Shown here: one piece after another, positions 11,509 through 20,011 of the stretch
Numbering within the stretch: position 1 is the first letter of the stretch
How the letters are laid out: every line of letters begins with the position of its first letter
Origin: Candidatus Blautia avicola
Lineage (GTDB): Bacteria > Bacillota > Clostridia > Lachnospirales > Lachnospiraceae
Assembly: GCA_019120515.1 (NCBI GenBank)
Contig: DWUY01000090.1
Coordinates: 1 to 40,354, forward strand
Length of the DNA: 40,354 bases
Reading direction: 5' to 3'
Made by a program: the position numbers and the translations under genes
The notes under the pieces: generated by a model
What the model was told of the DNA's origin: nothing
The model's database searches: none
The model's input: the letters and a program-made list of their open reading frames with translations, nothing else

Positions 11509-11524
11509 GTTAGTTTTCGCTAAC
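11509..11524. promoter_or_regulatory. Operator-like palindrome upstream of ABC exporter pair
   Basis: GTTAGTTTTCGCTAAC, 14/16 identical to 7738-7753. Confidence 0.55.
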
Positions 11525-11654
11525 CAGCGAACAAAAAAAATATATTCCTCAGGAACTGTGGCGCTGATCAAAAGAGAGGATATTTATAGATTTTATTCCT
11601 GGCATATGATTAATACCACAGTTCCGGCCCCTGCCTGAGATACTCTTATGGCAG

Positions 11655-15137: not shown

Positions 15138-15351
15138 CAGCCCCGGAAAACATGTGTCGAGATATCGTGCTGCCGCATTAAGCGTATTTCAGGAATATTT
15201 ATATATTTTATGCGAATTTGTCGAGCATAGCTTTGAGACCATAGGCTCAAAGCGGCACAGACTGAGCAAGAAAATATATAAATATTCTCAATTTTGCTTA
15301 TTGCGGCAGCGCCATATCCTGAACTTCTGTTTTCCGGGGCTGCCTTTTTTT
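15138..15351 (+). terminator. Terminator-like inverted repeat whose loop is occupied by the dispersed palindromic element
   Basis: CAGCCCCGGAAAACA (15138-15152) pairs with TGTTTTCCGGGGCTG (15328-15342) followed by a T-run (15345-15351). Confidence 0.7.
15169..15310 (+). repeat. Dispersed ~140-bp palindromic element, copy 1
   Basis: About 90% identical to 19870-20011; outer stem, 17-bp inner stem, central hairpin GCTTTGAG/CTCAAAGC; compensatory changes between copies. Confidence 0.9.
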
Positions 15352-18739: not shown

Positions 18740-19882
18740 ATGAAAAAAAAGAGATTTATATATTTTATCATTTTGCTTGCCCTGCTGATCCTCTGTATAA
18801 AATACAGCGACAGCATACTTGGATTTGCCGGATTTTTATGGAGCCTGGTCACGCCTCTTATCCTGGGCTGTGTGATCGCCTATATCCTGAATATCCTGGT
18901 CACCCGGATAGAAAGTCTTCCCTGTTTTACCAGGGAAGGCACTCTGCTTCGGAAAGTCCGCCGTCCCGTCAGTATCCTGGGATCCCTGGCAGTAATCCTT
19001 GCTATTGGAGTCCTGGTGATCCTCATTGTGATCCCCCAGCTGATACAGGCTATCGGGGTTATCGCAAAAGAAATCCCGACGGTAGTCTCTGAGATCAATG
19101 TCTGGCTGTCTTCTTTTGATAAAGACTGGCCCCAGCTCCAGAAATTCCTGGAATCCCTGAATGTAAACTGGCCTCAGATCCTGCAAAAAGCCGCTTCCTA
19201 TCTGACCAACGGACTGAGCAGCGTCTTTTCCTCTACCATGTATATCGTAAGCACTATCAGTTCCATAGCCGTTACCGCAGTTGTGGCCCTGATCTTTTCC
19301 ATTTACATACTTTCCGGAAGGGAAAAGCTTTTTTGCCAGTTCCAGACACTGGCCAGCACCTACCTGAATGAAAAATTTTACAAAGGAATGTGTGTGGTAC
19401 TAAAAACCGCTCACGATACTTTTACAAAATTTATCATAGGCCAGTGTACAGAAGCCGTGATCCTTGGCACTCTGTGTACCATCGGCATGCTGCTCTTCCG
19501 GTTTCCTTACGCCACCATGGTAGGCACCCTTATCGGAGCCACCGCCCTGCTGCCGGTAGTCGGCGCCTATCTGGGCGCCGCTGTAGGCGCTTTTATGATC
19601 TTTACCATTGATCCCTTAAAAGCCCTGGGCTTCCTGATCTTCATCGCCATCCTCCAACAGCTGGAAGGAAATCTCATCTATCCCAGGGTAGTAGGCTCCT
19701 CTGTAGGTCTGCCCGGTATCTGGGTCCTGGCGGCGGTTACCGTAGGCGGCGGTCTTGGCGGGATCATCGGTATGCTCCTGGCAGTTCCCGTGACAGCTAC
19801 CCTTTATAAGCTGCTTCAAAAAGATGTACAAAAAAGAAAGGCTGCCCTGCAGCCGAAAAAAGAAGAGGGACTGTCGCATTAG
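18740..19882 (+). CDS. AI-2E family transporter (YdiK/PerM-like permease)
   Basis: Eight-TM pattern; YPRVVGSSVGLPGIWVLAAVTVGGGLGGIIGMLLAVPVTATLYKLL. Confidence 0.92.
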   Translation: MKKKRFIYFIILLALLILCIKYSDSILGFAGFLWSLVTPLILGCVIAYILNILVTRIESLPCFTREGTLLRKVRRPVSILGSLAVILAIGVLVILIVIPQLIQAIGVIAKEIPTVVSEINVWLSSFDKDWPQLQKFLESLNVNWPQILQKAASYLTNGLSSVFSSTMYIVSTISSIAVTAVVALIFSIYILSGREKLFCQFQTLASTYLNEKFYKGMCVVLKTAHDTFTKFIIGQCTEAVILGTLCTIGMLLFRFPYATMVGTLIGATALLPVVGAYLGAAVGAFMIFTIDPLKALGFLIFIAILQQLEGNLIYPRVVGSSVGLPGIWVLAAVTVGGGLGGIIGMLLAVPVTATLYKLLQKDVQKRKAALQPKKEEGLSH

Positions 19883-20011
19883 TCACATGTCAGGAATATT
19901 TATACATTTTATGCGAATTTGTCGAGCATAGCTTTGAGACTATAGGCTCAAAGCGGCACAGACTGAGCAATAAAATGTATAAATATTCTCGATTTTGATT
20001 AATGCGGCAGT
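19870..20011 (+). repeat. Dispersed ~140-bp palindromic element, copy 2
   Basis: Homologous to 15169-15310; supplies the stop codon of the AI-2E gene. Confidence 0.9.

Follow-up and report, generated by a model that had tools for sequence, protein, structure and literature searches.

A mobile terminator-like hairpin repeat of Blautia that probably spreads by replacing native hairpins

Introduction

Small interspersed repeats in bacteria are usually taken as MITE- or REP-like leftovers of known transposases. In a contig of Candidatus Blautia avicola (DWUY01000090.1, assembly GCA_019120515.1; its 40,354 nucleotides are referred to here as the window), two long palindromes raise the question of what kind of element they are, and of how such an element could move. 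The element is real, abundant and mobile. The best explanation, to which we assign a probability of roughly 0.6, is that it is a mobile terminator-like hairpin repeat, akin to the pneumococcal SPRITE, that spreads by hairpin-for-hairpin replacement. It is present in multiple copies, occupies the position of terminators and has covarying arms that bear a conserved core; at several loci its place is exactly that of an unrelated native hairpin in relatives. What is new is the replacement of one hairpin by another: the states before and after can be seen in several close genomes, and the step that separates them is a hairpin swap and not an insertion.

The copies in the window

The two copies (15169-15310 and 19870-20011) align in BLAST without gaps and with 91% identity, in agreement with the gapless match of about 90% claimed in a first-pass annotation of the window. 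The compensatory pairs listed there were read directly in both copies, i.e., T15204-A15276 becomes C19905-G19977, G15169-C15310 becomes A19870-T20011, and G15182-C15297 becomes T19883-A19998. The proposed fold was likewise recovered in both copies; the element has a folding energy of -72 kcal/mol versus -34.4 (sd 3.6) for shuffled sequences (z = -10.6; 0/200 shuffles), and the opposite strand is nearly as foldable (z = -8.8). The central 60 nt or so, singled out by the same annotation, are indeed conserved; however, they are the tip of a single continuous hairpin and not a separate unit (Table 1).

What had been overlooked is that copies sit in intrinsic terminators, the clearest case being copy 1, which lies between GCCCCGGAAAACA and TGTTTTCCGGGGC-TTTTTTT. 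Copy 2 is flanked by the A-rich GAAAAAAGAAGAGG on the left and by CCTTCTCTTTTC on the right, and has an orthologue (L045) in the relative G014. A third copy, with an ABC transporter gene on one side and a TetR-family regulator gene on the other, was recognised because it is orthologous to two full copies (L191 and L115).

Table 1. Positions of the element copies and their parts in the window
Feature	Position	Strand	Remarks
Third, decayed copy	~11521..11624	-	outer stem retained, core gone; orthologues L191 and L115 retain the core
Enclosing intrinsic terminator, left arm GCCCCGGAAAACA	15140..15152	+	read from the sequence
Copy 1 (bounds of the first-pass annotation)	15169..15310	.	convergent neighbours: aldehyde dehydrogenase (+), FKBP/Nitro_FeMo-Co domain protein (-)
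Copy 1 outer stem, left arm GCTGCCGCATTAAGC	15169..15183	+	partner 15296-15310
Copy 1 inner arm GGAATATTTATATATTTT	15192..15209	+	partner 15271-15288; covariation strongest in this helix
Copy 1 conserved core	15209..15270	+	internal loops and apical hairpin 15230-15253, GCTTTGAG..CTCAAAGC
Copy 1 inner arm, other side AAAATATATAAATATTCT	15271..15288	+	
Copy 1 outer stem, right arm GCTTATTGCGGCAGC	15296..15310	+	
Enclosing terminator, right arm TGTTTTCCGGGGC then T-tract	15328..15351	+	read from the sequence; arm 15328-15340, T-tract 15345-15351 (TTTTTTT); copy 1 in its loop
Copy 2	19870..20011	.	convergent neighbours: AI-2E transporter (+), HTH/TPR protein (-)
Copy 2 conserved core	19910..19971	+	

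Copy number and distribution

A search of the host and its relatives, as suggested in the first-pass annotation, gave many further copies, and the outcome in which no others exist did not occur. The host draft (3.09 Mb) contains 53 BLAST matches on both strands, which correspond to about 41 separate places; with a covariance model the number of matches rises to 71, part of them being reverse-strand hits to palindromes already counted. Within the genus, covariance-model matches were found in 15 of 20 genomes, with a single weak one each in G002 and G003 and about 13 clear carriers, i.e., the element is present in most Blautia genomes searched, not all. The named assemblies with the core are B. 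pullistercoris, B. merdipullorum, B. stercorigallinarum, Blautia sp. An81 and Marseille-P3201, and the names of the Blautia assemblies that carry it point mostly to the chicken gut. Identical 138-bp stretches lie at three unrelated loci of An81; therefore, movement has been recent.

Matches among the relatives of the window are confined to one genus, and the core pattern occurred only in the host among 391 genomes of the class. Among 397 genomes of the family, the core was present only in Blautia and in a second Lachnospiraceae genus (g118; genomes G136 and G427), where it is near-invariant and found at three loci per genome, on arms of 25-45 bp that are unrelated and that covary between species. 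The core of the Blautia element is thus common to another genus on unrelated arms. In G136 (L286/L298) a half-core, GGGTCTGCGCTCGGTTTGAG, lies within a separate hairpin (CTCCTCCCC/GGGGGAGG) that adjoins the full core hairpin.

No match to the element was found in phages, plasmids or viral contigs, and an origin in a phage or plasmid was rejected on this ground. Rfam recognised no family in the window, the only matches being chance ones to miRNA-type long hairpins, far under the cutoff; and no description of the Blautia repeat was found in the open-access literature. Solo forms of about 55 bp that consist of the outer stem only are common (L160, L101, L178, L203, L196 and others), and look like derivatives in which the tip was lost between AATATT repeats.

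Architecture, covariation and the RNA reading

The element is non-coding, about 148 bp long, and ends in GGRGCTGTCGC and GCGACAGCTCC. From the outside inward it consists of an A-tract, GGR, an outer stem (GCTGYCGCATTA...), a loosely paired stretch, the inner arm and the core, followed by the mirror image; the core itself is formed by GCGAATTTGTCGAGCA, the apical hairpin GCTTTGAG...CTCAAAGC, and GCRCAGACTGAGC. In 29 diverse members, standard pairs make up 93.6% of pair cells and double-sided changes occur in 25 of 36 pairs. Double-changed cells number 103, versus 26.9 in shuffled alignments (0/500 shuffles) and 14-46 in slid controls. The covariation check on many copies was therefore answered well above both kinds of control, and the description of a dispersed, structured, mobile-looking element with many covarying copies, which coding features do not explain, was borne out.

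Other members are single-copy, and their arms are unrelated yet complementary. They lie upstream of metG (L039), tyrS (L027/L037) and an aspS-like gene (L040), and a tandem pair of this type follows an ABC-transporter gene (L038), these gene names having been assigned by eye from translations. At metG (L039 1472-1572) and tyrS (L037/L027), and also at L137 6328-6428, the member is placed in the 5' leader between a T-box and the start codon; the T-box was matched by RF00230 at tyrS and recognised by eye at metG. Compensated arm changes are found at orthologous loci (e.g., L039 and L137). At metG there is, in addition, a second, degenerate core downstream.

These features could suggest a structured RNA of the host, i.e., a cis-acting RNA-processing site, a stabiliser or a regulated terminator, with incidental amplification and with a core that a protein binds in its RNA form. 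We consider this unlikely, although several observations agree with it: the strong covariation, the members located upstream of tyrS, metG and the aspS-like gene, and a core conserved at orthologous sites as well as at the three long-armed loci of the second genus. In 26 orthologous pairs, core divergence was 0.055 versus 0.107 for the adjacent intergenic flank (core lower in 23 of 26, p = 9e-5), with 0.053 for the arms and 0.137 for the outer stem; compared by locus, the difference between core and outer stem was not significant (16:8, p = 0.15), and gene conversion among copies could add to the low divergence. Likewise, on the query strand the core has more G-T than A-C pairs (158:36), a hint that this is the strand that folds in single-stranded form; however, the excess comes from about six high-frequency columns, and rare variants are balanced (approx. 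20:20). In codirectional copies the sense strand is more often the other one (46:26), Rfam holds no matching family, and identical copies at unrelated loci would still need a mechanism of spreading.

Orientation is not kept either. The whole element is flipped in eight orthologous pairs, at about three loci, with flanks up to 99% identical, which shows that these palindromes are dynamic as DNA. When L178/L139 are compared with L101/L160/L049, the flipped elements are different copies, with 139-140 matches within a group and about 125-130 to other copies.

Template switching in quasi-palindromic DNA creates and repairs RNA stems (PMC8794818). Because it yields the same signal, compensatory changes alone are no proof of selection on RNA or of RNA function; selection for the hairpin and template switching within quasi-palindromes are both possible causes of the covariation. 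A repeat family may therefore show heavy covariation without being a functional RNA. For the unique arms of the single-copy members, the best reading is that they are the stem of a hairpin that had its tip exchanged, or else that selection or template switching has maintained their complementarity.

Position with respect to genes and terminators

Copies are intergenic, and most lie 0-50 bp from a stop codon or gene 3' end. Among 137 distinct copies, 56 have convergent neighbours, 72 codirectional and 9 divergent; in G007/G013 the convergent arrangement accounts for 23 of 29. The flanks, A-tract-GGR on the left and YCC-T-tract on the right, resemble those of bidirectional intrinsic terminators. 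A-tract and T-tract are located at approximately positions 4-12 on both sides, each with a frequency of about 50% versus about 30% further out, and the left and right flanks of the same copy are more complementary to each other (-9.2 kcal/mol) than partner-shuffled flanks (-7.3, sd 0.36). The copies hold the position and the shape of terminators, but the T-tract is not richer on the side needed by the upstream gene than on the other side. An unusual codirectional site is found within an operon, where the copy (L029 1501-1600) lies between two V-type ATPase subunit genes.

A motif of chromosome orientation was rejected, since a hand count of core strands in the complete genome G007 revealed no replichore bias.

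Sites with and without the element

The best comparison is the L065 site. In Blautia sp. An81 it carries a consensus copy, and its flanks are 98-100% identical to those of the element-free sites L325 (G001) and L326 (G011). The element-free site reads GACTGGAT[ACGCAGTTACAGAGCTTGATTCTGTAGCTGCGT]ATTTTACG and the filled one GACTGGAT[GGGGCTGTC...GACAGCTCC]ATTTTACG; that is, a 33-nt hairpin, ACGCAGTTACAGAGCTTGATTCTGTAGCTGCGT, stands in the element's place. In other element-free genomes, the place of the element is taken at L054 by the terminator AGYCTCCGAAAAGAGTC..CTCTTTTCAGAGRCT, at L007 by GGAGRCAGC hairpins (three genomes), at L011 by CCTCTGCCAATGCAGGGGC, and at L108 by TGCGGACCTTGGAACCGCA in several genomes and by GCAGATTTTCATAATCTGC in two others. 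At L147/L162 the whole element stands for the apical hairpin of another copy. The lost segments fold as hairpins (z from -1.5 to -7.1; 9 of 11 below 1% of shuffles), and the ends of the element are nearly the same across the replacement cases. A hairpin is also present in more diverged element-free sites (the window versus L115, and L155 versus L333); at L179 versus L133, where the flanks have diverged, there is none in the element-free genome.

As read from these alignments, six independent loci show the apparent exchange, at its base, of a native hairpin, usually a terminator, for the ~148-bp element. The case for replacement rests on these six loci, one of them excellent. They lie elsewhere in the genus, and a clean orthologous site without the element is lacking for both window copies; L115 was rejected as the empty site of copy 1, its flanks being too diverged and a different terminator lying between them. 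We infer the polarity of the exchange, which could have run in the reverse direction; in favour of filling, the filled copies of An81 resemble the consensus, and of the genomes compared at L108 An81 alone carries the element.

How the replacement might occur

In the proposed mechanism, a native hairpin, mostly an intrinsic terminator, would be removed at its base and the hairpin of the element would take its place, probably by way of single-stranded or cruciform DNA at replication forks. Because the A-tract and the T-tract are kept, the new hairpin should still terminate transcription in both directions, and because termination should persist, the swap would cost the host next to nothing. The putative recognition site of a trans-acting factor would be the core, which at orthologous sites diverges less than the flank and which a second genus shares on unrelated arms. 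A more specific proposal, which is possible and which we advance tentatively, is a dedicated form of DNA mobility in which a machinery that recognises the core excises the native hairpin at its base and substitutes either its own hairpin or the tip alone, with the native stem kept as arms; in this way the element would spread through terminators while these remain functional. If the process is directed, it would be a new way of DNA movement and a reason why terminators can pass between genes.

The host genome (a draft, 89% complete) contains 46 matches to the element ends. Of those outside full copies, 18 places were examined; they proved to be other repeats or short forms left by deletion, and in no case did the sequence read lead into a transposase gene. 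No gene that could mobilise the element, whether a transposase or another, was identified.

A rival reading is the classical MITE, in which the element would be non-autonomous, derive from a DDE insertion sequence and have GGRGCTGTCGCATTA as its terminal inverted repeats; it would target terminator loops or stems, the old stem decaying later. The element is short (approx. 148 bp), non-coding, intergenic and has inverted ends; it occupies about 41 places in the host, includes identical copies, and is nested in other repeats and in another copy. Outer terminator arms are retained in some copies (copy 1 of the window, and the GGACTCTT/AAGAGTCC site of L049/L178). However, no target-site duplication was seen in the six comparisons of filled and element-free sites, where the target hairpin was lost; at L065 the old stem left no trace in spite of flanks that are 98-100% identical; the 18 stray end matches examined led to no transposase gene in the sequence read; and the outer stems are strongly diversified in G007/G013, unlike ends defined by an enzyme. 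We regard a classical MITE as improbable. From the earlier description, "MITE-like or RNA-structured", the mobile repeat stands; a MITE is not shown, and selection on RNA is not proven.

A general turnover of terminators, in which 3'-end hairpins are swapped by template switching, as replication errors that use short A-tract/T-tract homology, and the element is simply the commonest donor, is less probable still: template switching does create and repair stems (PMC8794818), similar positions are occupied by a second palindromic repeat family, and the hairpins at the L108 site differ among element-free genomes, but new copies share their ends, which random switching would not be expected to produce, the core is more conserved than a mere donor would need, and the left flank of L065 has no A/T tracts.

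Relation to known repeats

The nearest described kind is the SPRITE-type terminator-like repeat (PMC3049150). SPRITE is a small interspersed terminator-like hairpin; its copies, about 30, are enriched where genes converge and close to 3' ends, and are confined to one species and its near relatives (PMC3049150); the Blautia element shows the same enrichment and a hairpin followed by a T-rich tract. SPRITE differs in its AT-rich sequence, its AAAA/TTTT ends and its 18-bp duplex, and for SPRITE no empty site of a comparable kind was found (PMC3049150). In a comparison by features, not by sequence, the Blautia element is longer and fully folded; its core is conserved, its arms covary, and its element-free sites show replacement. 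BOX and RUP are also short, non-coding, folded and multi-copy, with inverted ends and nested insertions. Just as some Blautia members adjoin T-box leaders, a large BOX element makes up a composite RNA together with T-boxes; however, BOX and RUP insertions make target-site duplications (PMC10969869, PMC3049150).

REP/REPIN sequences share with the element the condition of extragenic palindromes near 3' ends with many copies, but REPs measure 20-40 bp and belong mostly to GTAG/CGTC-tagged families (PMC3733652, PMC12306157). By inspection, no such tag was seen at the foot of the Blautia hairpin. A REP/RAYT system was rejected, because the Y1 transposase (PF01797) does not track the presence of the element, being absent from G011, G013 and G014, which carry dozens of copies. 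Fungal mitochondrial double-hairpin elements are mobile-looking non-coding hairpins in intergenic regions. The sponge mitochondrial RHE are similar in that they appear as mobile, non-coding hairpins that invade intergenic regions; their stems are conserved and their loops variable, the reverse of the Blautia element, and the part of that account considered here does not describe hairpin replacement (PMC2800124).

Another palindromic repeat, CCCCGATGCTTGCATCGGGG ... GTCCGCTTGGCTCGTTGCCCGC, is abundant as well and is met beside the element, inside it or instead of it (L002, L006, L009, L030, L033, L034, L206 and L213, and many other places); in G014, for example, it adjoins the terminator of the L007 site.
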